Source: an uncultured Archangium sp.
GTDB taxonomy: Bacteria > Myxococcota > Myxococcia > Myxococcales > Myxococcaceae
Direction of reading: 5' to 3'
Assembly (NCBI GenBank): GCA_903905455.1
Contig: CAIVGN010000191.1
Span: 1 to 64,000, forward strand
DNA length: 64,000 bases
The translations under genes were made by a program, and so were the position numbers. Shown in pieces: positions 39,696 through 62,050 of this stretch. The number at the start of each line of letters is the position of its first letter. The stretch's first letter is position 1. The notes under the pieces were generated by a model that was not told the origin of the DNA, did not search any database, and was given only the letters and a program-made list of their open reading frames with translations.

Positions 39696-41894
39696 TCACC
39701 CGCCGGGGGCGGGCGCGGCGTTGCCACTGACCGGCGGCGCGGCGGCCGGCGGCACGGTGACGAGCGTCGGGGCGCCGGGAGCGCGCGCCTCGGCCACCTT
39801 CTGAGACAACGTCGCCTCGAGGCCCCGGGCAAAGACGGCCATGGACGGGTCGGCCGCTCCCTGGGCCTGGCGCAGCACGCCCCACAGCGGGGCCTCGGGC
39901 TGGGCGGCCTTCACCAGGCCACGCACCAGGCTGTCGATGATCACGCCGCGGTCGGCCTCCGGCGTCGACTTGAGCGCCAGCAGCAGCTCCTGGGGGGCGT
40001 CGGTGGCCACCACCGCGAGCTGCTCCGAGAGCCAGGCCGACGAGCGCTCGTCGCTCGCGTCGACACGCACGAACTCGAAGAGCCGCGCCGCCGCGTCCAC
40101 GTTGCCGGCCGCGGCGAGCTCGACGAGCGAGGGGAGCACCGGGACATCGAAGCCCGCCTCGGTCGACGCCTTCTTGATGCGCCCGTACACGTCGTCGCTG
40201 GCCAGCGCGCTGTCGAGCAGCACCCGGACGCTGGCGGCCTCGCGGGGGTCCGACTGGTAGAGCGCGTCGGCGATGATCGCCCGCACCGCGGGGTCTTTCT
40301 CGCTGCGCCAGGCCGTGCGCAGCAGCGCCACGTTCCGCCGCTCACCCTTCTGCGCGAGGCCGACGTAGGTCTGGAGCCGGGCCTTGAGCTCCTCGAAGGG
40401 ACCGACGACGGACGGAGGGGTCAGCGCGGCGACGGCCGCTGAGGGGCCGCCCGCCGACCCGGAGGCCGCGATGGCCGCGCCGAGCGCGTCGATGTTGGGG
40501 ACCACGGTGCCCGCGCGCCCAGGGAAGTCGTTGACCATGATCGAGAACACGAAGCGCTCGCCGCCGACCGACTGCACGTAGCCCGAGAGCGCCGAGACGG
40601 TCTCGAGGGTGCCGGTCTTGGCGCGCAGGCGCCCCACGGCGTCGCTGCCCTCGAAGCGGTACTTGAGCGTGCCGTCCTTGCCGGCGATGCCCACCGACGA
40701 GATGTACTCGGGCATCACCTGGAAGCGGTCCATCATGTAGGCCAGCAAGCGCGTGGTCTGCGCGGCCGAAAAGCGGTTGGCGTCGTTGAGCCCCGAGCCG
40801 TTCTTCATCACGTAGCTGCCGCGCGCGATGCCCACGTCGCGCTCGAGGAAGTCTTCGACCACGTCGATGCCCTTGGCGTGGCTGCCCGGCGCACCCCGCC
40901 CCTCGGCGCCCAGGGTCTTGATCAGCTGCTCAGCGACGAAGTTCGACGAGTGCTTGTTGAGCTTCTTGAGCACGATGTCGAGGGTGTCGCTCTGCGCCTG
41001 GTAGAGCATCTTCTGCGCGTACGGCACGGAGCCCGCGCGCAGCCGCCCCTTCACCTTGAGGCCGCGCTGCTGCAGCAGGGCCTTGACCGTGAAGCCGAAG
41101 TAGAGCGCGGGCTGGTCGATCTTCTTCCACACCGACCAGGTGCCCTTGTCGACGGGCACCACGCCCTTGGCCTCGATCTTCTGCCGCACCCGGTCCTTGT
41201 CGAGCGCCGAGCTGACGGTGAAGCGGCGCTGGGTGTTGGTGCCGGTGGTGACCTCGCCTTCGACGACGAAGTAGTCCGACGGGGGGTCGACCTCGATGGT
41301 CGCCTTGCCCCCCGCGGCCTCGGCCGGGCGGAGGAAGACGCCGACGGTGTTCCAGTTGAGCGACAGCGCCCCGGTCGGCGCAAGGTAGGCCTTGTCGCCG
41401 TATTCCTGGTCGAAGCCCGGGGGCAGCCGCTCGCCGTCGAACCAGCCGTCGTCCACGACGATGTCCTGGACCTCCTTGAGGCCCGCGTGGAGCAGCTCGC
41501 CGACCATGCCGTAGAGCCGCTCGGTGGTGACGGTCGGGTCGCCGCGCCCTCGGATGTAGAGGGTCTTCGCCTTGCCGTCCTTGAAGTCAGGATCGACGAG
41601 GAAGTCGGTCTCGAAGCGGTACTCGGGCCCCAGCCGCGAGATGGCGGCGGCCGCGGTGTAGAGCTTCACGTTGGAGGCGGGGTTGAGCAGCTCCTCGGGG
41701 TCGCGGGCGAAGACCACCGAGCCGTCGTCGAGGCTGCGCACCTGCACCGTCACCCGGGCCGACTGGAGCGTGGTCTTGGCGAGCACCGACTCCATCGCCT
41801 TGCGCAGGGCCTCGCGGTCCTGGGCCTTCGGCGCAGCGGCCCACGCGTGGAGAGAGACGATGCAGCACAGGGTGGCGAGGTGACTGGTACGCAT
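39696..41894 (-). CDS. dacB: PBP4-type D-Ala-D-Ala carboxypeptidase with helical C-terminal extension
   Basis: 732 residues from ATG 41894 ([10 protein letters not shown]), chosen for its signal peptide (cleavage near A20-A21); the frame extends upstream. Peptidase S13 motifs: S-x-x-K as S74-N-V-K77, S-x-N as 'SGLN', and K-T-G as 'AKTGTL'. This periplasmic serine peptidase trims or opens peptidoglycan cross-links. After the catalytic domain (to about residue 490) there is a ~240-residue HEAT-like helical extension ('[23 protein letters not shown]') and a Pro/Ala-rich tail, which ordinary PBP4 lacks. Confidence 0.9.
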
Positions 41895-41969
41895 CGGGCG
41901 AGGTGGAGTTAACTGTGTTTGCAGCGTCGGCGCGAAACTCTGGCGCCCTTTTCGGGGAGGGACCCACAC

Positions 41970-42647
41970 ATGGCAGAGAACATCTCGGTGTCAGACATCA
42001 TCCCCGCTCGTCCTGAGCGGCTCTTCGCGGCGTGGCTCGACCCCGAACAGCACGGTCGCATGACCGACGGCCTCGCCACCGACGAGGGGGATGGCCGGTT
42101 CACCGCATGGGACGGGTACATCTCGGGCCGCACCGTGTCTGCGGTGCCACACGCGACGATCGTGCAGGCGTGGCGCACCAGCGAGTTCGGCGACGAGGAC
42201 CCCGACTCGCTGCTCACCGTGCGCTTCGAGCCGACCGGCGAGGGCACGAAGATCACCTTCGATCACGAGAACATTCCCGACGGCCAGGGCGAGGCCTACC
42301 TCGAGGGGTGGAAGGACTTCTATTTCACGCCGATGAAGAAGTACTTCGGCGCGCCCGGCGAGAAGGTGCGCGAGGTCGGGCAGAAGCTCGAGGCCGCCGC
42401 CAGCGACGCGGTCAAGGCGGTGAAGAAGGTCCAGCAGCATGCCAGGGCGAAGCTCAAGGCCGTCGGCAAGCAGGTCAAGGCGCTGGTCTCGCGCAAGAAG
42501 CCACCGGCGAAGAAGAAGGTCGCCGCGAAGAAAATGGCCCCGCCCAAGAAGGTCGCAGCGAAGAAGGTCGCAGCGAAGAAGGTCACCGCGAAGAAGAAGG
42601 CCCCGGCGAAGAAGGCGCCCCCCGGGAAGAAGCCCGCCAGGCGCTGA
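41970..42647 (+). CDS. START/AHSA1-domain protein with histone-H1-like tail
   Basis: 225 residues from ATG 41970, preceded by GGGGAGGG. Residues 1-125 are an SRPBCC/AHSA1 domain ('SDIIPARPERLFAAWLDPEQHGRMT', 'GRTVSAVPHATIVQAWRTS', 'GTKITFDHENIP'). Residues ~135-225 are a disordered basic tail of repeated AAKK/AKKV/PAKK units, like bacterial H1-like/AlgP tails that bind nucleic acid. The fusion suggests a hydrophobic-ligand or Hsp90-cofactor-type domain brought to DNA or RNA. It is divergent from dacB (75-bp gap). Confidence 0.87.
   Translation: MAENISVSDIIPARPERLFAAWLDPEQHGRMTDGLATDEGDGRFTAWDGYISGRTVSAVPHATIVQAWRTSEFGDEDPDSLLTVRFEPTGEGTKITFDHENIPDGQGEAYLEGWKDFYFTPMKKYFGAPGEKVREVGQKLEAAASDAVKAVKKVQQHARAKLKAVGKQVKALVSRKKPPAKKKVAAKKMAPPKKVAAKKVAAKKVTAKKKAPAKKAPPGKKPARR
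42475..42644 (+). repeat. Lys/Ala coding repeats (H1-like tail)
   Basis: Low-complexity repeats of gcagcgaagaaggtc type; the 15-base unit occurs twice in direct tandem near 42552-42581, with diverged copies on both sides. They encode the basic tail of the START-domain protein. Confidence 0.75.
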
Positions 42648-49213: not shown

Positions 49214-50077
49214 TCAGCGGCGCAGCAGTTCCTGGAGGTGCTGTCGCTCCCAGGCCATGGCCGCGTCGTACTTCGGGAAGCTGCGCTCGCGCTCGCGGAA
49301 CGCGCGGGGGTGGTGCACGTGGCGCCCCGTGTCGCGCGCGCTGGGGAAGAGCTGGTGGAGCATCTCGTGGAAGACGATGAACTCCACGAAGAAGCGCGGC
49401 ACGTCAGGGCGATCGAGCGCCGGGTGAAGCCGGATCTCCCGCGCCTTGTGATCGTAGACCCCGAGGCGGATCGACTTGCGGCGGCGCTTGCCGGTCTGGC
49501 GGCCCCAGCCGATGCGCGCCTCCACCTTGCCCTCGAAGTGCGCGACGTTGATCTCCTCGAGCAGCACCTGGAGATCGAAACACTCGCCCCGTGACTCGAG
49601 GGCCGTCGGCTTGCGGGGGAAGGCGCGAATGAGCACCTGCTGGTGCGCGATGTAGTCGTCGAGCGCTGCGCCCGCGGCCGGCTTGCCTTGCCCCGCGTAC
49701 TCGGCGATCGAGCGGATCACCTCGGGGGGCGCGTCGAGGAACATGTGGTGCGCGCGGATCTTCAGCAGCGGCGGTTGTCGCCGGAAGCTGATCATCGTCG
49801 AGCGGTTGTCATGCACCGTCAGCAGCACCTTGAACTCGGACCCCAGGATGGCGGCGATCTGCGTGGCCAGCGCCCGCGCCCGGGCAAGCGTCTGCTGGCG
49901 CGTCGGCAGGGGGGGCACGGCCACGTGCGGGACGCGCGGCGCCGGCGCGGGCACAGGCTCCGGCACCAGCGGCTGGACAGGCACCAGGACCGGCACCGGC
50001 ACCGGCCTCGGGGGCTGCGCCACGGGCGAGACCGCGCGGGCCTTGCCGAACAGATCGAGCTGGCGGGGAGCGAGCAT
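49214..50077 (-). CDS. SprT-like zinc metalloprotein
   Basis: 287 residues from ATG 50077; TTG 50101 and GTG 50080 are possible alternatives, and no strong ribosome site decides. A Pro/Val-rich N-terminus (16-60) precedes the SprT-like domain with zinc motif 'HEMLH' at 237-241 and a third His likely in 'HHPRAF' about 15 residues later. It has the mini-gluzincin layout of SprT/Spartan-type proteins, which include proteases acting on DNA-protein crosslinks, but members are often uncharacterised. Ends 3 bp from the convergent ASCH-like gene. Confidence 0.82.
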   Translation of the reverse strand: MLAPRQLDLFGKARAVSPVAQPPRPVPVPVLVPVQPLVPEPVPAPAPRVPHVAVPPLPTRQQTLARARALATQIAAILGSEFKVLLTVHDNRSTMISFRRQPPLLKIRAHHMFLDAPPEVIRSIAEYAGQGKPAAGAALDDYIAHQQVLIRAFPRKPTALESRGECFDLQVLLEEINVAHFEGKVEARIGWGRQTGKRRRKSIRLGVYDHKAREIRLHPALDRPDVPRFFVEFIVFHEMLHQLFPSARDTGRHVHHPRAFRERERSFPKYDAAMAWERQHLQELLRR

Positions 50078-50115
50078 CACCGGGAGGATCGTTGTAGCCA
50101 AAGACGGGAGCGGTG

Positions 50116-50156
50116 AAAACGACAGGCGCCCGGCCCCTGTGAGGGAGACCGGGCGC
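50116..50156 (-). terminator. Likely terminator of the metalloprotease operon (minus strand)
   Basis: An 8-bp stem (GCGCCCGG 50126-50133 with CCGGGCGC 50149-50156) and an inner CCCT/AGGG stem. Four U residues follow a few bases later on the minus strand. The short, slightly displaced U run makes it weaker than the other terminators, but it is correctly placed 25 bases past the operon's last stop. Confidence 0.55.
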
Positions 50157-50180
50157 TTGGGGTGATTCAGGTACGGAGCG

Positions 50181-53100
50181 TCAGTTCGAGCGGCCGAAGA
50201 TGGCGTACAGCCCGCGCATCATCTCGAGCGTGCGGGTGGCGTCACGAACCTCGACCTCCCACTGCGCCGCGGTCTTGCCGTCGACCGGCTGGTTGGCGGC
50301 CACGGCGGCCTCCCACTTCACGCGGAGCCCAGCGGCGCGCTCGACCATCGCCGCACCGGCCGGCGGGTTGACCAGGCCGGTCTTCTTCATGGCGGCGTAG
50401 ACGTAGCCGCCACCGAAGGGGTCGTTGAAGGTGACGACCGAGAAGCCGGCCGCGGGGGTCAGGTTGTCCGACGAACCCAGGCGGAACACCTGGTTGAAGT
50501 TCGCGAACTCCATGTTCCCGTTGGTCGTGAAGTACGCCATCGACAGGAACTGCGCGTAGAAGCGCGCCGTCCACGTCGAGATGGGGGCGACCTTCGACAT
50601 CACCATCGGCTGGCCGCTGCCATCCACGGGGATCGCCGGGGCCAGGGGGTAGATGAAGCCCGGCACGAAGTCCTGCGCGCGGATGAACGAGGGCTGCTGG
50701 ATCACCGCCGTGCCGTCGGACTGCTTGCCCAGCTGGGGCGCGTAGTACGAGGAGTTCTGGGTCCAGTAGTTGTTGAACAGCGGCGCCATCTCGAGATTGA
50801 ACGTCGTGTAGTACGGCAGCGAGTAGCGCAGTGCATCGGAGCCGCGGTCCACGCCGAGGAAGTTCGTCTCGCTCGTCGCGAGCGCGATGAGCGAGGCGTA
50901 GACGTCCCAGAAGTGACCGGCCTCGTTGACCCGGTTGAAGTTGTCGTAACCGAAGGTGTCGTAGACCGTGAACATGCTGCGGCCGGGGCCGCGGGGCACG
51001 TACACGATGTCGGAGTAGGCGCCGTTCTGGGGCTTGGCGAGCTCGGTCTTGAGCGACGCTTCGGCCGCGGTCTCGAGGCGACGGTTCTGCGGGTCACCCG
51101 TAGGCACGTACTCCCACGAGCCGTCGGTCTTCTTGCCGTGGTAGCCGGCGGAGGGCACGGCGAGCTGCTGCATCAGCAGGTTCGTCGAGTCGATCACCGC
51201 CATCGTCCAGTAGTTCTGCCAGATGGGGTCGCCGAGGCCGTAGAACTTGTCCATCTCCTCGGGGGTCAGCTGGTAGTACTTCGCCAGGTAGAAGATGTTG
51301 AACAGCCACTGCTGGTAGACATTGGGGATGTTGCCCAGGTAGCGGCCGAACTTGCGCGAGGCGACGGCCGACGGAGAGAAGGTCAGCCGGTCACGGCGGA
51401 AGTTCTCGAAGACGTAGGCCTGGTTGAAGCGCTCCATCCACTTCGTGGTCATCTCGAAGACGTCGGCGCCCTGGTCGTTGCGGTTGCACAGCAGGTTCGC
51501 GCCGACTTCGTAGTCGGAGCAGAACATGTAGGGCACCTCGACGGGGATGGTGTGCCCGCCGGCCGAGAAGCGGTCAATGGTGGTGTTCACCTCGTCGACG
51601 AGCAGCAGGCGGTTGTGCGTCAGCTCGGCGGGGTTGGTGAACTCGACGGCCACGAAGTGCTTGCCCGCGGTGAGCTCGGTCTTGAACTCGAAGGTGCCGG
51701 TGAAGGGCGAGGTGGTGGGCGAGCCGAAGGTCAGCGCGCTGACCTGGGTGCCGTCGAGGCTCACGGTGAGCGTCGCGCGGCTGGTGTCGCCCGAAGGCAG
51801 CGACTCGCTGAGCTTGACCTGGATCTTGTAAAGGCCCTTGCTGAACGGCTCGATGGCGAAGCGCACCGCCCCGCGATCACGCAGCGCGAAGGACGAGCCC
51901 TCGACCTGGTTGCAGAGCACGAGGCCGCACTTGATCTCGGAAGCCGACGAGAAGAACTGGGGGCCCGTGAGGTTCTGCGAGTGCGCGTTGGTGATGATCT
52001 CGCTCGCGCGCTCGTAGTCGTTCTGCCGCAGGCTGGTCTCGGACAGGGTGTAGGTCTTCAGCGAGCGCTCGATGGCCTTGTAGTGCCCGTCGAGCTCGCT
52101 CCACCGGCGGAACGAGCGGTTCTTCATGCGGGTGATGCCCTGGTCGAGCATGCCCTCGAAGGAGGCCTGCTCGTCCGCGAAGTGAAAGGGCAACGTCGTG
52201 TAGTGGTACTTGTCGGTGTAGAAATTCGAGGCCGGCGTGTAGTGCTCGACCTGCGCCAGTGGGATCTCCACGTGGGCGCCGCGGGCGGTGAAGACCTTCG
52301 CCTGGTTGTCGAGGGGCACCGTGATGTTCGGGGCCTTGTTGGGGTCGCGCATCTCGTTGAAGACCTCGACCCAGCCGGGCTCGAAGCCGCCCGCGTAGGC
52401 AAAGAGGATCGCCGCGTCGTCGTACTTGCCGGTGCCGCGGTTCTGCGAGTTGACGCGCGCGCCGTAGTCCATGATCGACGAGTACTCGAGCTCGTACATC
52501 GACTCGTCGATCTGCTTCTGGTTGAGCTTGGCCGCGTCGACCAGGTTGGCCGGCGTCACGGGCAACACCCGCTTGCCGCCGACCTGCACGCCGATGGTGT
52601 CCTTGCGCAGGTCCCAATACCCGTCGTGGTAGTTGAGCGCGTCGGCCGAGGCGATGAAGTTGTGCATCAGGCCGAGGGTGTGGCCGATCTCGTGCTCGGT
52701 GACCGAGCGGTACGCCTCGCGGCGCAGCGAGTCGTAGACCTGGGCCTTGGCGAGGGTGAGGGCCTCTGCGTCGCTCTTGCCCTGGCCCTTGTAGCCGGCG
52801 ACCAGGTCGCGCTGCATCTTGACCTTGCGCTTGGCGAGGCCGACGTAGTCCTCGTCATCGTAGGAGAACTCGTAGAAGCAGCCGACGTTGGAGTCGGGCG
52901 TGTTGCGGATCTTGGCGATGGCATCTTCGACGGGGTCGATGCCCAGCAGCATGTTGCGCGCCACCTGGCGGTAGAACGCCGAGTCGGTCTGCAGCTTGGC
53001 CTGGAAGCCCTTGTTGGTGGTCAGCGACTGCACCGCGATGCGCACCTCGGGCAGGTTGACCAGCTCCTCTTCGAGCGCGGGGTTGTTCTTGACCAGGCGC

Positions 53101-54812
53101 TCGACGACCGCGCGGCGGTTCTCGTGGGCCAGGGGCAGCGTGCCGTTCTGCTTCCACTGCTCGGCGAGGGTCTTGAGCTTGCCGTCGAGGTTGGCGAAGG
53201 AGCTCATGGGGCGCGTGGGCTCCGAGACGAGGCCCTGCTGCGAGTTCCACGGGCCGTTCGCCGGGCGGCGGGGGTCGGTGGGGTTCAGGTTGGCGAAGAC
53301 GTAGTCCTTGATGTCCTTGCCGGTGACGAGCTCGCTGAGCGAGAGCTCGCCGCTGACGACGTCGATCACCTGCTGCGAGCTGCCCGCCCAGGTGTCGAGG
53401 CCGGGACCGTAGATGTTGGCCGCGGCGTGCACGACCATGCCCGTCTCGGGGTCGACCGACGACGGCCCGAGGCCGAGGAGGCCGCCGGCGTTCTGGTCCA
53501 CGTAGGGAACGATGTTGTACCGGAGGTCGCCGATGCGGGCGTAGGTGCCGGGCGCGCCGCACGCTTCGGGCGAGCCTTCACGAACGGGCGACTCGCACAG
53601 GTAGAACATGTGGTCGACCTGGCTGACCTCGAGGCCGCGCGGCACGGCCACGGCGCGGCGGTAGGCGCGGTCCCACGAGGCTTCGATGGTCTGCTCGGGG
53701 TCGAGGCCGTGCTGCACCGCGAGGTGCCGCGAGCCGACGCCCTCGATGTGCGCCGGGGTGTTGGCCGTCATGTAATAGACGATGGGGCGCAGGCCGCGCT
53801 TGTCGACGGGAATGGTGCCACCGGCGTCGTCGTGCGCGCGCTGCCAGATGTTGTGGCGCATCGCGAAGAACTGCTGGCCCGTGTACGTGTAGCCGTAGTC
53901 GAGCGAGTAGCTGTACGACTCCTGGCGGAAGAAGCCGAACTTCTTCATCAGGCGGTTGTTGTAGACGAGGGGCTCGTAGTCGTTCGAGACCGACTCATCG
54001 ACCCGCAGCACCGAGGTGCGGATGCGCACGTCGACGCTCTCGCAGTCGACGGTGGGGTTGAAGAGGCACAGCGGCAGGTTGCCGTAGCCCTCGTAGTAGA
54101 TGCTCGGCGGGTTGACGATCAGCTGCGTCGTCCAGTCGAAGTACGTGAGCTTGTCGCTGGCGTCGCGCGAGAAGGTCATCGACTGGTCCTGCGGCTGCTG
54201 GTCCTGGTCGGTGATGTAGCGCGTGAGCAGGCCCAGGCCGCCGACGCACGCGAGGTTGGGGTTGACGATGCGCTGCGCGGCGCAATCAGACTCGGAGTTC
54301 TCGATCTGGTTCGCGTGCCAGTTCACCCGCATGAACTCGCGCTCGTACCAGGGGCGATCCTGCGAATCTTCGACCAGCACGTTGCTCTGCTCGCCGGTCG
54401 ACGCGTTGTACTGGCGCTGGCGATCGAAGTGGCTCTGGATGCGGTACGCGAAGACCGGGTTGCCCTTGTAGGGGCGGCCGTCCTGGAAGACGACCTTGCC
54501 GAGCCTCGACTTCTCGCGGTCGACCATGGGGTCGGCGCCGGGGATCACCTCGTAGGCGCGGTAGGCGACGAGGAGATCCTCCTGCACCTCCCAGCGGATC
54601 TTCTCCATCTTGCCGCCGTAGCCGATGGTGGCGACGCCGTTGGGCGTCTTCGGCGCGTCGACGATGGACTCCTTGATGTACCAGGTGCCCTGGAGCAGGT
54701 CGGACTTCTTGATGTAGTTGGGCTGGGTGCGGTCGATCAGCTCGGGCTGACCGCACGCCGCCGCGAAGATCGCGGTGGCGGCGAAGACGATGCTGCGGAA
54801 CAGGCGGTTCAT
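50181..54812 (-). CDS. Giant zinc-metalloprotease lipoprotein A
   Basis: 1543 residues from ATG 54812, best spaced from AGGGA; ATG 54818 is possible. The signal peptide has an A-A-A-C20 lipobox (MNRLFRSIVFAATAIFAAAC). The metzincin-like zinc motif HExxHxxGxxH is 'HEIGHTLGLMH' starting at residue 707, followed by 'EYSSIMDY', a Met-turn-like segment. This combination resembles the DUF4953/PF16313 zinc-dependent metalloproteases, but the chain is nearly twice as long. Residues ~955-1090 form a beta-sandwich/CBM-like insert absent from its neighbour. It is the last gene of a three-gene operon with its paralogue and a barrel protein; predicted surface or periplasmic protease. Confidence 0.9.
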   Translation of the reverse strand: MNRLFRSIVFAATAIFAAACGQPELIDRTQPNYIKKSDLLQGTWYIKESIVDAPKTPNGVATIGYGGKMEKIRWEVQEDLLVAYRAYEVIPGADPMVDREKSRLGKVVFQDGRPYKGNPVFAYRIQSHFDRQRQYNASTGEQSNVLVEDSQDRPWYEREFMRVNWHANQIENSESDCAAQRIVNPNLACVGGLGLLTRYITDQDQQPQDQSMTFSRDASDKLTYFDWTTQLIVNPPSIYYEGYGNLPLCLFNPTVDCESVDVRIRTSVLRVDESVSNDYEPLVYNNRLMKKFGFFRQESYSYSLDYGYTYTGQQFFAMRHNIWQRAHDDAGGTIPVDKRGLRPIVYYMTANTPAHIEGVGSRHLAVQHGLDPEQTIEASWDRAYRRAVAVPRGLEVSQVDHMFYLCESPVREGSPEACGAPGTYARIGDLRYNIVPYVDQNAGGLLGLGPSSVDPETGMVVHAAANIYGPGLDTWAGSSQQVIDVVSGELSLSELVTGKDIKDYVFANLNPTDPRRPANGPWNSQQGLVSEPTRPMSSFANLDGKLKTLAEQWKQNGTLPLAHENRRAVVERLVKNNPALEEELVNLPEVRIAVQSLTTNKGFQAKLQTDSAFYRQVARNMLLGIDPVEDAIAKIRNTPDSNVGCFYEFSYDDEDYVGLAKRKVKMQRDLVAGYKGQGKSDAEALTLAKAQVYDSLRREAYRSVTEHEIGHTLGLMHNFIASADALNYHDGYWDLRKDTIGVQVGGKRVLPVTPANLVDAAKLNQKQIDESMYELEYSSIMDYGARVNSQNRGTGKYDDAAILFAYAGGFEPGWVEVFNEMRDPNKAPNITVPLDNQAKVFTARGAHVEIPLAQVEHYTPASNFYTDKYHYTTLPFHFADEQASFEGMLDQGITRMKNRSFRRWSELDGHYKAIERSLKTYTLSETSLRQNDYERASEIITNAHSQNLTGPQFFSSASEIKCGLVLCNQVEGSSFALRDRGAVRFAIEPFSKGLYKIQVKLSESLPSGDTSRATLTVSLDGTQVSALTFGSPTTSPFTGTFEFKTELTAGKHFVAVEFTNPAELTHNRLLLVDEVNTTIDRFSAGGHTIPVEVPYMFCSDYEVGANLLCNRNDQGADVFEMTTKWMERFNQAYVFENFRRDRLTFSPSAVASRKFGRYLGNIPNVYQQWLFNIFYLAKYYQLTPEEMDKFYGLGDPIWQNYWTMAVIDSTNLLMQQLAVPSAGYHGKKTDGSWEYVPTGDPQNRRLETAAEASLKTELAKPQNGAYSDIVYVPRGPGRSMFTVYDTFGYDNFNRVNEAGHFWDVYASLIALATSETNFLGVDRGSDALRYSLPYYTTFNLEMAPLFNNYWTQNSSYYAPQLGKQSDGTAVIQQPSFIRAQDFVPGFIYPLAPAIPVDGSGQPMVMSKVAPISTWTARFYAQFLSMAYFTTNGNMEFANFNQVFRLGSSDNLTPAAGFSVVTFNDPFGGGYVYAAMKKTGLVNPPAGAAMVERAAGLRVKWEAAVAANQPVDGKTAAQWEVEVRDATRTLEMMRGLYAIFGRSN

Positions 54813-54844
54813 GTTCATTCCCTGAAGAGTGTGGATGGCCATGT

Positions 54845-57800
54845 TCAGAACGCCTTCCCGAAGGCCTGGTACATGCCGCGCTGCGTGTCGAGGTCGCGGA
54901 TGGCGTCCTGGAAGACCTCCGTCCAGTACTTGCGACGGTCTTCGAGGATCGCCGGGTTGTTCCCCTGGTCGGCCGGCAGGCAGGTGTAGCCGAGGAAGAA
55001 GATGTAGTCGGGCAACGGGCAGGTGGTCGGGTCGAGGACCAGCTGGCGGTACTGGTTGGCGATGTCGATCATGCGCACCGCGCCCGTGCTGTTGGGGGCG
55101 GCGCCGTCCTTCTCGATGGCCACGTAGCGGTGGCCGGTGACTACGTCAGGCACCTCGACCGTGTGGTAGCCCGGCGCGACCTGGAAGGCCTCGCCGCTGC
55201 CCAGCTTGAAGATCTGGTTGGCCTTCGAGTAGTCGAGATCGTTGTTCACCCGGAAGTACGCCATGCCCAGGAACAGGCCGTAGATGCGGCTGGTGTACGT
55301 GAGCTGAATGTTGGCCGGCGCGGGGTTCTGCGCGGTCTTCCAGCAGTCGTCCTTGAACGGGGTCTGGCCGACGGAGCAGTTGCGGCGCTCGCGGGGGTAG
55401 TTGAAGCCCGCGAAGAAGTCGGTGCCGCGCACGTAGGTGCGCCACTCGATGTTCGCGGCGTCCTGCACCTCGTCGCCGGAGTTGACCGACTTGTAACCCG
55501 TGGGGCGGATCTTCTCTTCGTCGTTGGCCCACAGCGAGCTGAAGGTGCTCTGGAACTCGTCGCGGAACACCAGGTAGTACGGGATCGCGTAGCGGTCGCT
55601 GTCGGCCGTGACGTCGACGCCCTGGATCTCGATGTCGGGGATCACGGCCGCGAACATCGCGCCGATCTGATCGTTGTAGTGCCCGGCCTCGAGCATGCGG
55701 TCCCAGAAGCCGAAGCCCGACTTGTAGTCGAAGCGGCTGTACATGCGGCGCCCCAGGCCACGGGGAATGGTCATGAAGTCGGTCGCCTGGTAGCGGCTGC
55801 GGTACAGGTCCTCGAGGCGCTGGCGGCCGGCGGGGTTCAGGTAGTCGAAGTCGTCACCCTGGCTGATGAGGTCCCAGCGGGGCCCGCCACGCAGGTTGCG
55901 CAGCATGAACAGGCCGTCCGGGGGCACCGACATCACGTTGAGGTGCTGGTTGACGCCGTCGAGCACGGCCATCGTCCAGTAGTCCTGCATCAACGGGTCG
56001 AGCTTGTAGCGGCTGACCTGCTCCTGGCCGCGCGAGCTGGTCTTGTAGAACTCGTAGACCCAGTGCTTGTACGAGTTCGACACGAAGAAGAACGTGCCGA
56101 AGGTGCGGTTGAACGCGGCGTTGCCGCTGAAGAACGCGCGGTCACGGCGGAAGTGGCTGTCGAAGTAGTAGTTCCAGTAGTCCTCGAGCTTGGTGCGGAC
56201 GATCTCGTAGTAGTCCGGGCCGCGGTCGAAGCGGTTGCACGAGAGCACCGGGCCGTCGGCCGAGTCGTCGCTGCAGAACATGTACGGCACGCGGAGCAGC
56301 GGGCTGCCGATGACGCCGGCGGCGCGGTCGGGGTCGTCGATGAGGGTCGGGTCGGCGAGCATCGCGGTGCGCACGCGGGCCTCGTCGGCCACCACGGCGG
56401 TCCACTTCTCGAGGTGGCGATCACGCAGCTTGCTGATGCCGTCGTTGATGATCGCGTTGATCTCGTTGCCCTCGCCGAAGTGCAGGGGCACCGTCGAGTA
56501 GTGGAAGCGCTCGGTGTAGTTGCGCACGTTGGGGTTGGTGTGCGTGACGTTGACCATGGGCAGGTCGGCGCCGGCGCCCGAGATGGTGAGGTTGGCGTTG
56601 TCTGAACCGGGCACGACCTTGGAGGTCTTGCGCGCGCCGTTGAACACCTCGACGTAGCCGGGCTGGGTGTCACCCGAGTAGGCGAAGATGAGGGCGGCCT
56701 CGTCGTAGCGACCGATGCCGGCCCAGTCGCCGTAGATCTTCCCCGAGTAGTCCATGATCGACGAGTACTCGTGGTTGTGCATGCCGGTGGTGAGCTGGTC
56801 GGCGGTGCCGTCGGTCACCTTCTTCATGTCGGCCGGGGTGCGGGCCACCTTGGCGACGCCGTTCTGCTGGATGGTGAGGGTCTCCTTGCGCAGGTCCCAG
56901 TACTTGTCGCCGTAGTTGATCGAGTCGTACGAGCCCTGGAAGTTGTGGCGCAGGTTGAGGGTGTGCCCGGTCTCGTGGAGCGCGGTGGCGAGCCACACCT
57001 GCTGGCGCAGCTGGCGGGAGATCTCGTCGTCGGCGATGCCGCGGGCTTCGTCGGTGGTGCAGCCGCTGACGTTGGCGCAGCGCGCGTTGCCGCCGTCGAC
57101 GAGCTCCTTCACGCGGTTGTTGCGGTAGAGGATCTTCTCGTTGGCCACGCCGACCAGGGTGCGGTCGTAGAAGTCGAAGGTCGTGATGCTGTGCTTGCCC
57201 AGGTACTCGAGGCGGGCCTTCTCCCAGTTCTGGGACAGCTTGATGTTGGTGAGCACCGAGCGCGAGGCGTCGCGGAGGAAGTTCGGGTCACGCGCGGCGG
57301 CGCCGCGGGCCACGGCGGGGAGCAGGTTCACGAGGTCGGCCTGCACGTCGGGGTTGTCGAGCAGGGCGGCCTCGAGCTCCGGGTGCTTGGCCAGCTCGTC
57401 GGCGGCCTTCTTCATCTGGTCGCCGCGCGAGGCGATGGTGGCCTTGTCTGCCTTGAGGGTGGCCATGAGGTTGGCCATGCGCATCGAGGGGCGATCCCAG
57501 GCGCCGACGGACTCGGCGTTGCGGGTCGGCTCGCCCTGGAGCTCGGACTGCAGCACGCCCTGCTTCTGGAGCTTGGCGATGTTGTAGACCGGGTTCTGCG
57601 CGATGTAGTCGTGCGCCTGCTGGCCGGAGATGTAGCCGTCGAGCGTCTGCTCCTTGTTCAGCAGGAGGATCCAGTTGAGCACCGAGCGGCCGTAGAGATC
57701 GACGCCCCAGGTATAGGTGTTCGACATGGCCGAGATGATCTGCCCGGTCTCGGGGTCGGCCGAGCTGGGGCCGTAGCCGAGCAGGCCGTTGGCCACAGGC

Positions 57801-59158
57801 TCCGCGACGGTGTTCACGAAGCTGTGCCGGAGGTCGCCGATCTTCGGCGAGAAGCCCGCATCACCACACTCGATGGGGTCGCCCGACTTCACCGGGTTGT
57901 TGCACAGGAAGAACATCTGGCGAACGGTCGAGGGGTCCTTCTGCTGGGCGGCGCCGATGGCGCGGCGGAAGGCGCGGTCGTAGTCCTTCTCGATGGTCCG
58001 GCCCGGCTCCCAGAACTCGTCGTAGCGGGCGGTGCCGCCCATGCGGGCGGCGGGGGTGAAGTAGTAACGGATGGGCTCGGGGGTACGCGCCGCCATGGCG
58101 ATGGCCTGGTCGGTCACCTCGCCGTTGGCCTTCTGGTAGTACTCCTTCCAGACGCGGTGGCGGTTCGCGAGGCGGATGACGGCCGAGTCGTTGAACCCGA
58201 ACTTCTTGTCGTAGTTGAGGCGGTCGGTGCGGAAGTACCCGAAGTACGACATCAGGTCGTTCGGGAACTGCAGCGGCTCGTAGTCACGCGACCAGGTGGT
58301 GTCGACCTTGGCGATGGAGACCCGCATGTGGATCTCGCTCGCGGTGCAGTCGTTCATCTGCCCGTAGCTGGCGAAGTAGCAGAGGGGAACCGCGCCGAAG
58401 CCCTCGAAGTAGGTGGTGTCGGGCGAGGCCATGTAGCGGCCAGTGACGTCGAAGTAGACGAGCTCTTTCTTCCCGTCGCCGTTGCGATCGGCGTACTCGA
58501 AGCTCGGCCAATCGTAGGGGTCGGTGCCCGGCTCGTTGGGCTGGATCCAGTTGGAGTTGGTGACGCCGCTGGCCGGGTTCTGCACCGTGCCCCAGTTCAG
58601 GCCCGAGGCCTGGTTGAGCACGTTCATCGCCCAGTTCACGCGGATGTACTCGCGCTCGTTCCACGGGCGATCCGAGGCGTTCTCGGAGACCACGTTGGTC
58701 TGCTCGCCGGTCGCCGGGTTGTACCCGCGCTGGATGTCGAAGTGGCTGACGATGGGGAAGGCCACCACCGGAGCGCCGTAATACTTCTGGCCGCCCGTGC
58801 ACACGCCCGCGGCGTTGCAGTACTTGGCGGTGGTGCCGGAGATCTTCGACGTCTGGTCGACGTTGGCCTCGGCGCCGATGGCGTAGGCGTAGGAGCGGTA
58901 ACCGACGAGGTTGCCTTCCTGGACCTCCCACACCAGCTTTTCCATGTTGCCGGTCTGGCCGGGGAACGTGAACTGGGTGTTGAACGGCGTCCAGGTCACG
59001 GTGTTGCGGAAGAACCACTGCCCGTCGAGCAGGTCCGCCTTGCGGACGACGTTGGGCTGAACACGGACGACATCGCCGTTGCTCTGCGCGCAGCCGACCG
59101 CGAACAGCACGGTGACGGCAGCGGCGAGCCAGCGCCAGTTGGTGGAGCGACGGGTCAT
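54845..59158 (-). CDS. Giant zinc-metalloprotease lipoprotein B (paralogue of A)
   Basis: 1437 residues from ATG 59158, with GGAGG 5 bases upstream. Signal peptide MTRRSTNWRWLAAAVTVLFAVGC, lipobox A-V-G-C. It shares with protein A the mature start 'QPN...DLL-G-W', the block 'GPSSxDPETG', the zinc region, 'EYSSIMDY', and a C-terminal 'VPYMFCSD...CNR' and 'FRRDR' block. Its zinc motif is 'HETGHTLNLRH' from residue 728, with Asn where metzincins normally have Gly. The protein sits 32 bp upstream of gene A and 43 bp downstream of the barrel gene. Confidence 0.9.
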   Translation of the reverse strand: MTRRSTNWRWLAAAVTVLFAVGCAQSNGDVVRVQPNVVRKADLLDGQWFFRNTVTWTPFNTQFTFPGQTGNMEKLVWEVQEGNLVGYRSYAYAIGAEANVDQTSKISGTTAKYCNAAGVCTGGQKYYGAPVVAFPIVSHFDIQRGYNPATGEQTNVVSENASDRPWNEREYIRVNWAMNVLNQASGLNWGTVQNPASGVTNSNWIQPNEPGTDPYDWPSFEYADRNGDGKKELVYFDVTGRYMASPDTTYFEGFGAVPLCYFASYGQMNDCTASEIHMRVSIAKVDTTWSRDYEPLQFPNDLMSYFGYFRTDRLNYDKKFGFNDSAVIRLANRHRVWKEYYQKANGEVTDQAIAMAARTPEPIRYYFTPAARMGGTARYDEFWEPGRTIEKDYDRAFRRAIGAAQQKDPSTVRQMFFLCNNPVKSGDPIECGDAGFSPKIGDLRHSFVNTVAEPVANGLLGYGPSSADPETGQIISAMSNTYTWGVDLYGRSVLNWILLLNKEQTLDGYISGQQAHDYIAQNPVYNIAKLQKQGVLQSELQGEPTRNAESVGAWDRPSMRMANLMATLKADKATIASRGDQMKKAADELAKHPELEAALLDNPDVQADLVNLLPAVARGAAARDPNFLRDASRSVLTNIKLSQNWEKARLEYLGKHSITTFDFYDRTLVGVANEKILYRNNRVKELVDGGNARCANVSGCTTDEARGIADDEISRQLRQQVWLATALHETGHTLNLRHNFQGSYDSINYGDKYWDLRKETLTIQQNGVAKVARTPADMKKVTDGTADQLTTGMHNHEYSSIMDYSGKIYGDWAGIGRYDEAALIFAYSGDTQPGYVEVFNGARKTSKVVPGSDNANLTISGAGADLPMVNVTHTNPNVRNYTERFHYSTVPLHFGEGNEINAIINDGISKLRDRHLEKWTAVVADEARVRTAMLADPTLIDDPDRAAGVIGSPLLRVPYMFCSDDSADGPVLSCNRFDRGPDYYEIVRTKLEDYWNYYFDSHFRRDRAFFSGNAAFNRTFGTFFFVSNSYKHWVYEFYKTSSRGQEQVSRYKLDPLMQDYWTMAVLDGVNQHLNVMSVPPDGLFMLRNLRGGPRWDLISQGDDFDYLNPAGRQRLEDLYRSRYQATDFMTIPRGLGRRMYSRFDYKSGFGFWDRMLEAGHYNDQIGAMFAAVIPDIEIQGVDVTADSDRYAIPYYLVFRDEFQSTFSSLWANDEEKIRPTGYKSVNSGDEVQDAANIEWRTYVRGTDFFAGFNYPRERRNCSVGQTPFKDDCWKTAQNPAPANIQLTYTSRIYGLFLGMAYFRVNNDLDYSKANQIFKLGSGEAFQVAPGYHTVEVPDVVTGHRYVAIEKDGAAPNSTGAVRMIDIANQYRQLVLDPTTCPLPDYIFFLGYTCLPADQGNNPAILEDRRKYWTEVFQDAIRDLDTQRGMYQAFGKAF

Positions 59159-59201
59159 GTTGCCTCCAGAAGAGAGCTGCAGGTTTCGCGAAGACATGGG
59201 G

Positions 59202-60362
59202 TCAGTAGGCCGCGGAGAGGGTGAAGTAGATCGACGTTCCGTTGTCGGCCCACGTGCCAAGCGAGAGGAAGGGGAAGCGGACCTGGCCGGTCGGCGTGAG
59301 CGGGGTCTGGACGGTGCTCACCCCGAGGTCGAGCGAGTAGTGCTCGTTGAGCTGGTACGAACCGCCGAAGTACGACGAGGTGCGGTCGCTCTGGCCGAGG
59401 CCGACCTTGGCCACCGGGTTGCCGTTGTCGTCGAGGGCCTTGGGCGTCAGGTCGTCGACGGCGGTGGTGATGCCGTGCTTCCACGAGCGGATGTACGTGT
59501 AGCCGGCGTAGAGGAGGAAGCTGCCCGTCGCGCGCCACTGGATCTGGCCGCCGGCGGACAGCGACCACGCCGGGTTGGCGCCGCCGGTGCCGCAGTACAG
59601 CTCGCCCGCGCGGCACACCGACAGCAGGTTGCCGTTGGAGTCGGTGGGGGTCACGCCGGTGCCGCTGACGTTGGGGTTGCGGAAGCCGTTGAACGACTGG
59701 CCGTAGAACGCGCGCGAGCCCGAGAGCACGGCGCGGAAGTCGACGGTGCCCACCGAGCGCGAGGCGGTGACGCTGACGCTCAGCGCGGTGATCAGGCCGC
59801 CGTTCCAGCTCTCGAGGGAGGTGGGGATGGTGAGGCCGACGCTCGGGGTGAAGGCGATGTTGGTCAGGGCCTTCTCCCTGAACAGCGCGGGGGCCGAGAC
59901 GCCGACGCGGATGTCGCCGACCGACCAGCGACGGCCGGTCTCGGCGTCCGGCAGGGTGTACTCGTAGCTGCCGCGGATGGTGGCGCTGGCCACGAGGCGC
60001 TGCTTGCCGATGCCGAAGAGGTACTGGGGGATGATGGTGAGGTAGGCCGAGAGCGACGAGTAGTAGCGCGCGTCCACGAAGGTGCCCGCGCCCAGGTAGT
60101 GATCGAGGGCGGTGATGAACTGGAAGCCCGACTGGTTGGCCTGCTCTTCGGGCGTGCGCGCCTGGACGGCGTTGGCCAGCGGGTTGGCCGCCTTGGCTGC
60201 GTCCTTCTTCTGCGTGCTGTCGGCGGTGGCCCCCGTCGCGGTCGCGGCTTCAGGCGTGGTCGGGGAAGAAGCCGGCGCCTCGGGCGTTGGAGCGGGCGTC
60301 TGCGCCAGCGCCAACACGGGCACCAGCAGGCTCAGCAAGATTGCGGCAAGCGCCTTCTTCAC
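59202..60362 (-). CDS. Outer-membrane beta-barrel protein of the metalloprotease operon
   Basis: 386 residues with a GTG start at 60362, fixed by GGAGG six bases upstream and by a clean Sec signal peptide (KKALAAILLSLLVPVLALA). After an Ala/Thr/Pro-rich segment (20-75) come many amphipathic strands ending in aromatic residues ('RLVASATIRGSYEYTL', 'FLLYAGYTYIRSW', 'YSLDLGVSTVQTPL') and a terminal 'STIYFTLSAAY'-like strand ending in Tyr, typical of outer-membrane barrels. First gene of the operon; a porin, secretion partner or docking site for the two lipoprotein proteases are all possible. Confidence 0.85.
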   Translation of the reverse strand: MKKALAAILLSLLVPVLALAQTPAPTPEAPASSPTTPEAATATGATADSTQKKDAAKAANPLANAVQARTPEEQANQSGFQFITALDHYLGAGTFVDARYYSSLSAYLTIIPQYLFGIGKQRLVASATIRGSYEYTLPDAETGRRWSVGDIRVGVSAPALFREKALTNIAFTPSVGLTIPTSLESWNGGLITALSVSVTASRSVGTVDFRAVLSGSRAFYGQSFNGFRNPNVSGTGVTPTDSNGNLLSVCRAGELYCGTGGANPAWSLSAGGQIQWRATGSFLLYAGYTYIRSWKHGITTAVDDLTPKALDDNGNPVAKVGLGQSDRTSSYFGGSYQLNEHYSLDLGVSTVQTPLTPTGQVRFPFLSLGTWADNGTSIYFTLSAAY

Positions 60363-60655
60363 GCAGACCTCCGGGACAGGACGGGGCCGGGGGGCAACAT
60401 GTGTGCCGAAATTCCCCAACCGACCGAGAGCAGCAAAGACGATGAATTCACTGCCAAAACCGACGCGCCCAGGCGAAGCGAGAACATCGCAGGTGCGGCA
60501 CCGGCCGCGCTGAGCGTTAGCGGAGCGACGGTCTTGGTGAGCGGCGATGCCAGCAAAGCGACACCTCGAACAGCGTGTAGGCAGACGTCTGGAAAAGGCG
60601 CGCGCTGTAACACGGGGGTCAGCGGCCGATCAATCAGGGTGACTAACGCGGCGAG
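60363..60655. other. 293-bp intergenic control region
   Basis: No gene supported on either strand. It is the longest gene-free stretch in the window and must hold the promoter of the barrel/metalloprotease operon (minus). It contains the shared GACCCCCGTG-type element at 60607-60621 and several short A-rich patches (gaattca, caaaacc), but no clear -35/-10 pair that I would assign. Confidence 0.6.
60607..60621 (-). promoter_or_regulatory. Second copy of the GACCCCCGTG element
   Basis: On the minus strand it reads TGACCCCCGTGTTAC, about 245 bases upstream of the barrel gene start. The core differs from the ssb copy (39641-39661) at one position within GACCCCCGTG(C/T)TA. Recurrence in two intergenic regions, in the same orientation relative to the gene, is the evidence. 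Confidence 0.35.
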
Positions 60656-62050
60656 TCAAGCATCCTGCGCGGTCGCCAGGAGCCGCTGGAGCCTGGCCGG
60701 TTCGAGCCGCAGGAGCATGGTCTTTTCGCGCGTGAAGGTGACCGCGCCGGGGGCCGCGTCCTTGGGTTTGTGGACGAACTTCACCGGCGTGTAGCTGACC
60801 TCGACGCGGGGCTCGCCCTTGGCGTCGGAGTGGTGCGCGGCGAGGTGGGCAGCGTCGAGCAGCAGCTCGCTGCTCAGCGTGGCGTTCTTCTCGATGGGCA
60901 CCACCACGTGCGCCCCGGGGACGCCGCGGGCGTGGAGCCAGACGTGAAAGGGCCGGGCGACATGGAAGGTGAGCGAGTCGTTGTGGGTCGAGCCGCGGCC
61001 CACCCAGATGCGGTGCCCGCCCTGCCCCACGTACTCGCGGTACGGCGGGAGCGCCGGCTGGGCGGCGGTCTTCTCGCGGCGGGAGGTCAGCGGTGGCGGC
61101 GCGCTGGGCGCGGTGTCGAGGGCGGCGAGCTGGGCCTCGAGGGCCCGGCCTTCGGCCTCGAGCACCCCGAGACGCTGCCTGGCCATGTCGGCGCCGCGCA
61201 CCATGCGCTTGTACTGGTGGAACCGGTGCTCGACCTCCTGCTGGGGCGTGCGCCTGGGGTCGAGGGCGATCTCCACGTCGCGGGTGGTGCCGTCTTCGAG
61301 GTACTCGGGCAGCACCACCGAGGGAGCCCCGCGCTGGAGCCGGTAGAGGTTCTGGGTGAGCAGCTCGCCCTCGCGGCGGAAGGCGAGCGCCTTATCGGTG
61401 CGCTCGGCCTCGACGCGCACCTTGGCCCTGGTGCGCTCGAGCTTCTTGAGCTTCGCCAGCAGCGGCGCCTTGCGGCCATCGACGTAGGTCTTCTGCTCGC
61501 TGGCGGCGAAGAGCGCCTCGGCGGCATGGGCGAGGCGGAGCACGGGGCGCTCGCCCTGCAGCCGCGAGGTCGAAGGCTTGAGCGGCTGCTCGTCGAGCGG
61601 CACCCACGGATGGTTGACGCGCAGGCCCGGCCGCGAAGGCACCGAGACGCAGCGCACCCTGGCCTCTCCGGTACACAGCACGATGACCGGCGCGGTGGTC
61701 ACCTCGAGGATGAGGTTCAGGAAGCGCTGCGCCTTGGTGAAGTGCAGCAACAGGGTGCGCCGCGCGGGCAACACCTCGACGTCGGCGAGCTTCGCGCCGG
61801 TCAGTTCGGAACGGAGCACCGACTGCCAGCCCGGAGGCGTGGGCGGGTTCTGCGGGCGCTCCTCGACGGCCGAAAGGCGGGTGACGCCGGGGTCGGCGCA
61901 CAGCAGCAGGGTCACGCTGCGACCCGGCACGCGAACCTCGAAGTACACCCGCGTGGTGGTGGGCGAAGAGACGTGCTGCACCACGCCGCCGGCCAGCTCG
62001 CGGGTGATCTCCGCGGCGATGAGGGACAGCTCTTCAGCTCGCAGCGACAC
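60656..62050 (-). CDS. NFACT (RqcH-like) protein, short form
   Basis: 464 residues with a GTG start at 62050. An N-terminal NFACT-N-like domain ('LADVEVLPARRTLLLHF', 'NPPTPPG') is followed by a Lys/Arg-rich coiled coil (about 195-330) and the NFACT-R (DUF814) domain 'HNDSLTFHVARPFHVWLHARGVPGAHVV' near residues 360-390. RqcH-type proteins bind stalled 50S-peptidyl-tRNA complexes and add Ala tails. It is ~100 residues shorter than usual and reads A96-R97-R98 where the family has an essential Asp-Arg pair. It overlaps the ligase stop by 17 bases. Confidence 0.88.
   Translation of the reverse strand: MSLRAEELSLIAAEITRELAGGVVQHVSSPTTTRVYFEVRVPGRSVTLLLCADPGVTRLSAVEERPQNPPTPPGWQSVLRSELTGAKLADVEVLPARRTLLLHFTKAQRFLNLILEVTTAPVIVLCTGEARVRCVSVPSRPGLRVNHPWVPLDEQPLKPSTSRLQGERPVLRLAHAAEALFAASEQKTYVDGRKAPLLAKLKKLERTRAKVRVEAERTDKALAFRREGELLTQNLYRLQRGAPSVVLPEYLEDGTTRDVEIALDPRRTPQQEVEHRFHQYKRMVRGADMARQRLGVLEAEGRALEAQLAALDTAPSAPPPLTSRREKTAAQPALPPYREYVGQGGHRIWVGRGSTHNDSLTFHVARPFHVWLHARGVPGAHVVVPIEKNATLSSELLLDAAHLAAHHSDAKGEPRVEVSYTPVKFVHKPKDAAPGAVTFTREKTMLLRLEPARLQRLLATAQDA

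Follow-up and report, generated by a model that had tools for sequence, protein, structure and literature searches.

A possible tether protein from an uncultured Archangium: an AHSA1-type SRPBCC domain with an amphipathic helix and a lysine-rich, H1-like tail

What role could a small ligand-binding domain play when it ends in a tail resembling histone H1-like proteins? The question is raised by one gene in a 64,000-nucleotide stretch of DNA from an uncultured Archangium sp. (contig CAIVGN010000191.1), hereafter the window. A first-pass annotation described this gene as a START/AHSA1 domain fused to about 90 residues of Lys/Ala/Pro repeats, considered the pairing unusual, and suggested that a small molecule or a chaperone cycle could thereby act on chromatin or RNA. 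The gene (41970..42647, forward strand) is an open reading frame with an ATG start that encodes 225 amino acids plus a stop; a likely ribosome-binding site, GGGGAGGGA (41954..41962, forward strand), was read directly in the sequence 7 nt 5' of the ATG. AlphaFold2, applied to the window protein as the sole protein modelled and with an alignment of 74 rows taken from 133 distinct rows, predicted a helix-grip domain (residues 1-127), one helix (residues 129-174), and an unstructured end (residues 175-225). Prediction and comparison together support this three-part layout, its conservation, and the link to a neighboring dacB-like gene described below. In the source genome, no paralogue was found at a meaningful E-value beyond the gene itself.

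The first part (residues 1-127; 41970..42350, forward strand) was assigned as an AHSA1-type SRPBCC domain by Pfam, the structure model, and fold comparison. The AHSA1 family (PF08327) matches residues 13-126 with an E-value of 1.6e-14 and 54.7 bits against a gathering cut-off of 22.1, and it is also matched by 17 of 17 dacB-linked orthologues (Pfam, E up to 0.05). Blocks of the domain model mostly reach pLDDT 96-98, and its PDB matches, with Z scores of about 14-20, place it in the helix-grip fold. Among solved structures, the closest chains are C-terminal domains of Aha1 (8z3h, 1x53, and 7dme); 8z3h aligns over 126 residues with Z 19.8, rmsd 1.8, and ~27% identity (E 1.6e-11 in Foldseek), and 1x53 is matched by sequence with an E-value of 3.1e-9. 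The domain thus named is the AHSA1 branch of SRPBCC, and of the double label first given to it, "AHSA1" stands while "START" is loose. The likeness to AHSA1-like proteins and the Aha1 C-terminal domain, in both family and fold, extends over residues 1-127. Compared with Aha1, the protein has no N-domain or NxNNWHW motif and carries an extra helix and a K/A/P tail, and HSP90 is mostly not detected in its carriers.

The gene is divergently arranged with a dacB-like gene (39696..41894, reverse strand; PF02113, E 2.3e-90) for a D-Ala-D-Ala carboxypeptidase of the S13 type with a HEAT-like C-terminus, and in the window 75 bp lie between the two start codons. Throughout the closest group the divergent pair recurs, in 19 of 19 genomes (the window and 18 others; L005-L019, L022, L023, and L028). 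Within the genus, one genome (G053; assembly ~79% complete, junction contiguous) has dacB directly adjoining the next lipoprotein gene and lacks the AHSA1 gene; the gene is therefore dispensable or was never gained there. The HEAT-like C-terminal half of the S13 carboxypeptidase is kept in relatives. Farther along the window, positions 50001-62000 have a clearly positive GC skew (about +0.1 to +0.15) and a GC content lowered to ~0.66 over much of the stretch, unlike the rest.

A long amphipathic helix (residues 129-174; 42354..42491, forward strand) is predicted to follow the domain, on the basis of structure prediction (blocks of pLDDT 86-95, down to 75 near its end) and of hydrophobic moments compared with shuffled sequences. 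The moment exceeded that of the shuffles in all 17 dacB-linked orthologues of a set from which L012, a near copy of L011, had been omitted (one segment cut; no more than 2 of 500 shuffles reached the observed value). With a fixed 45-residue cut after the domain, the same held for 18 of 18 (no more than 9 of 300 shuffles reaching the observed value), and with the last 45 residues for only one of 18 (L018). Outside the dacB-linked group, seven of 29 tailed relatives were too short, and four of the 22 measurable ones stayed within the same limit of 9 in 300 shuffles (L032, L137, L154, and L156); the segments of L032 and L137 are unlikely to be one helix because they hold 5 and 10 prolines. Taken together, the tests inside and outside the group indicate that the helix plus the tail marks the dacB-linked group, the basic tail alone ranging wider. 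An Apolipoprotein model was matched weakly by four of the 17 orthologues (best E 0.0056), and no phasin family was listed among their Pfam matches (E up to 0.05), phasins being divergent families. Matches on the helix or tail to CTP_synth_N, Terminase_6C, ZorA, PRK13808, and other Pfam and NCBIfam models were treated as composition matches.

The last part (residues 175-225; 42492..42644, forward strand) is predicted to be a disordered, K/A/P-rich, H1-like tail, as judged from its composition, from pLDDT values of about 54-65, and from a model without secondary structure. Lysine accounts for 29 of the last 98 residues of the protein, compared with 3.6% of 3463 residues in seven neighboring proteins (binomial p 6e-19), where no 98-residue stretch holds more than 14. 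The annotated succession of an SRPBCC-type domain and a K/A/P-rich C-terminus is thus borne out by both the Pfam match and the lysine count, while the "~90 residues of repeats" are not uniform: they include the helix, and only residues 175-225 are disordered tail. Within this tail, the DNA contains a tandem repeat array of 15-bp and 33-bp units encoding KKVAA-type repeats (42512..42619, forward strand; Tandem Repeats Finder). The K/A/P part varies in length between orthologues but keeps its strongly basic charge: the net value lies between +14 and +29 in all 17 and is +25 in the window protein, counted with a slightly different boundary. In composition the tail resembles bacterial H1-like proteins (NF038053; HC2, PF07382), from which it differs in that it is attached to a folded domain. 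The score with the curated NF038053 model for such proteins is only 18.5 bits, below the cut-off of 80; therefore, "H1-like", as first annotated, is accurate for composition and not for family membership.

The domain pair is present in other genomes. In the order, 44 of 145 genomes match the protein at E up to 1e-8, seven of which (G043, G044, G045, G047, G048, G085, and G092) have only a distant tailless subfamily. The remaining 37 carry the main family, and their proteins comprise 35 with a basic tail (including L030, whose readable part is basic), one cut by a contig end (G128), and one without a tail (G038), which ends two residues past the domain. A search across the phylum, with E up to 1e-15 as the limit, gave matches in 50 of 195 genomes. 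A wider search of genome contigs found six tailed proteins among 75 distinct loci (the best 80 of 229 relatives, five copies removed); two are Myxococcales by name, two Planctomycetota, one Chloroflexi, and one a delta proteobacterium, and misbinning in metagenome-assembled genomes could account for some of them. Tailless orthologues, which the first-pass annotation had named as evidence against its reading, are thus limited to a single readable genome in the order, and outside the phylum they prevail: among the same best 80 of 229, most relatives have neither tail nor helix, and the bare domain is widespread.

A quick tree was built from 133 rows and 129 columns, with 72 of its 130 inner branches left open. 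The tailed rows group in it, with 11 changes between tailed and tailless; the starred branches require 2 to 3. An AU test did not reject a clade uniting all 47 tailed rows apart from the 83 others (p-AU 0.446), and for this reason repeated independent gain of the tail is not claimed; one origin is compatible with this result. Rows identical to others (L034-L037 and L040) had been removed beforehand. No tail label was given to L028 and L030, which are cut by contig ends, or to L067, which runs into another protein; L031, with masked bases in its tail, was labeled tailed by hand, and L143 and L154, which overrun their stretch, were counted as tailed. In L067 the AHSA1 frame continues into an NAD-dependent-epimerase-like protein (named by eye), possibly as a fusion.

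Two Pseudomonas proteins offer points of comparison for such a layout. In PhaF, a phasin of Pseudomonas putida, an amphipathic helix is joined to a lysine-rich, disordered DNA-binding domain, and the protein places granules (PMC3574117); in AlgP of Pseudomonas aeruginosa, the KPAA domain is required for granule positioning (PMC9239181). DNA binding has been reported for the H1-like domains of both (PMC3574117; PMC9239181). The likeness to PhaF, a long amphipathic helix plus a lysine-rich disordered domain, is a comparison of how the proteins may work; the order of parts differs, the PhaF helix being N-terminal, and PhaF has no SRPBCC domain. AlgP likewise has a K/P/A-rich, H1-like C-terminal domain behind a helical part (PMC9239181). 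Its tail, however, consists of 154 residues of KPAA repeats, compared with ~51 residues of mixed KKVAA/KKAPA type here, and AlgP too is without an SRPBCC domain.

A basic tail should bind polyanions, and a helix and pocket suit hydrophobic partners; together, the three parts suggest a tether or local delivery protein. In such a protein, the SRPBCC domain could hold a hydrophobic or partly unfolded ligand, and the helix and the pocket would contact a hydrophobic surface. The disordered polycation would stick without sequence specificity to DNA, to rRNA or the ribosome, or to polyphosphate, and the domain and its hydrophobic surface would in this way be held at a polyanionic body such as the nucleoid, as with PhaF at PHA granules and AlgP at polyphosphate granules. 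By analogy with these two proteins, we infer polyanion binding, hydrophobic cargo, and the tether role, and we put forward tentatively, at slightly less than even confidence, that the tail serves as an anchor to nucleic acid, the ribosome, or polyphosphate while the helix and pocket contact hydrophobic cargo. The pairing of a ligand pocket with a polycation is plausible, and the amphipathic helix points to a tether rather than to the ligand-controlled chromatin regulator implied by the first reading. Retention of the tail in 35 of 37 carriers and amphipathicity of the helix in 18 of 18 dacB-linked orthologues favor the tether. The source genome encodes a polyphosphate kinase and a PhaC-like protein (276.6 bits, below the curated cut-off of 365.3), which leave polyphosphate and PHA bodies possible and single out neither. 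Against a tether, most relatives from outside the phylum, as covered by the best 80 of 229, do without tail and helix, and G053 lacks the gene.

Other proteins of the same genome also bear on the tail. The KKxAxKK pattern, searched at the DNA level, occurs at 23 places in the source genome compared with one for a reversed control. This census is a lower bound, as the pattern requires GCS; the window gene itself was missed because it uses GCA. Some of the 23 places are single motifs inside ordinary proteins, and six (L115, L116, L119, and L123-L125) lie in arrays that other places already represent. Pfam was run on nine motif proteins, and L121, L126, L129, L130, L132, L133, L134, and L136 were judged from sequence only. 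The motif lies toward the C-terminal side of topoisomerase I, Obg, thioredoxin, and an HC2-like protein (below the Pfam cut-off), and toward the N-terminal side of RsfS, DUF1801, and Rho; a cytochrome c of the same genome has a short basic end. The Obg, RsfS, and Rho loci, with lysine-rich ends or N-terminal stretches, are L127, L120, and L135. The thioredoxin (L122:1474-2097), with a K/A/P tail of roughly 65 residues, is an odd carrier for an H1-like tail. Another protein (L118:1483-2001) has a PhaF-like layout of a helical part, a proline-rich linker, and a K/A/P end; it has no Pfam match and adjoins a GrpE-like gene (grpE named by eye from sequence). To judge from this census, the tail is a widespread appendage here, carried in many cases, though not in all, by proteins of DNA, RNA, or the ribosome. 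Since the genome encodes several unrelated proteins with comparable basic stretches, the tail appears as a habit of the lineage, and the pairing is less unusual than the first-pass annotation had supposed.

Such a habit may be all that the tail represents: K/A/P stretches would arise by repeat slippage at protein ends in high-GC genomes and be kept as a harmless feature or solubility aid, the AHSA1 domain being the sole working part. The excess of the motif over its control fits this account, as does its occurrence in 139 of 145 genomes of the order, including genera without the AHSA1 gene. The tandem repeats in the tail DNA would be expected also from near-neutral slippage, and thioredoxin and cytochrome c bear basic ends without acting on nucleic acid; both observations weigh against the tether. 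However, enrichment of the motif is not universal, its excess over the control being clear in many of those listed and weak in some (G049: 6 vs. 4). A tail kept so widely among carriers, with its charge maintained despite varying length and a conserved, amphipathic helix before it, also argues against a harmless by-product, and several of the motif proteins (topoisomerase I, Rho, Obg, and RsfS) act on DNA, RNA, or ribosomes, in favor of the tether. We regard slippage alone as a somewhat unlikely explanation.

Another alternative concerns the partner of the tail, which might mainly bind polyphosphate rather than nucleic acid and place the protein on polyphosphate granules in starvation. AlgP provides a precedent (PMC9239181), and lysine-rich sequences have been described as binding polyphosphate non-covalently (PMC12077175). 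The polyphosphate kinase of the source genome adds little weight because such kinases are common (present in 7 of 14 control genomes), and nothing specific to this protein points to the polymer, so that this partner as the main one is unlikely.

The position opposite dacB raises the prospect of an envelope factor, which would share a control region with dacB, act in cell-wall or envelope stress, and rest with its basic helix and tail on anionic membrane. The constancy of the divergent pair and the short distance between its start codons agree with this idea, and a basic amphipathic helix could bind membrane. Nevertheless, dacB is kept beside other neighbors where the linked gene is absent: it is present in 22 of 23 genomes picked among those lacking this gene, and no AHSA1 gene adjoins it in any of the 21 with more than 1 kb of flank (L183 has only 182 bases). 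Thus, dacB does not need the AHSA1 gene, and the shared position may be mere inherited order; an envelope role is very unlikely. Finally, an Hsp90 (HtpG) co-chaperone of the Aha1 kind, brought by its tail to ribosomes or the nucleoid, would fit the closest solved structures and the HSP90 encoded in the source genome but is highly improbable, as HSP90 was detected in only 5 of the 37 genomes with the main family (4 of the 19 dacB-linked ones) compared with 65 of the other 108 in the order (Fisher p 8e-7, uncorrected for kinship, with draft genomes that may miss some HSP90), and the protein begins with its SRPBCC domain, without the Aha1 N-domain and the NxNNWHW motif required for Aha-type action in vivo; the chaperone cycle first proposed loses ground accordingly. 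In the order as a whole, HSP90 (PF00183) was found in only 70 of 145 genomes and is scarce where the AHSA1 gene occurs.

Returning to the tether, a bolder, ligand-responsive form can be imagined, in which the SRPBCC pocket would sense or load a hydrophobic molecule, the helix would dock on a surface of lipid, polyester, or membrane, and that surface would be fastened to the nucleoid by the H1-like tail. This would amount to PhaF-like positioning on an unrelated fold, encoded opposite a cell-wall carboxypeptidase gene, and we consider it improbable in this full form.

The domain is known and the kind of tail is known; for their combination, an SRPBCC or AHSA1 domain joined to an H1-like or lysine-rich tail, no paper was found in the literature searched, subscription papers being mostly outside its reach. 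If the tether reading is wrong, the case would serve as a warning that K/A/P tails are common in these genomes and do not indicate chromatin function gene by gene. If it is right, the tying of a hydrophobic body to the chromosome in the manner of PhaF and AlgP would also exist on an SRPBCC scaffold, in another phylum. Basic tails would then be a general address tag on unrelated proteins of one genome, and the role of the tail could be tested in a single organism.
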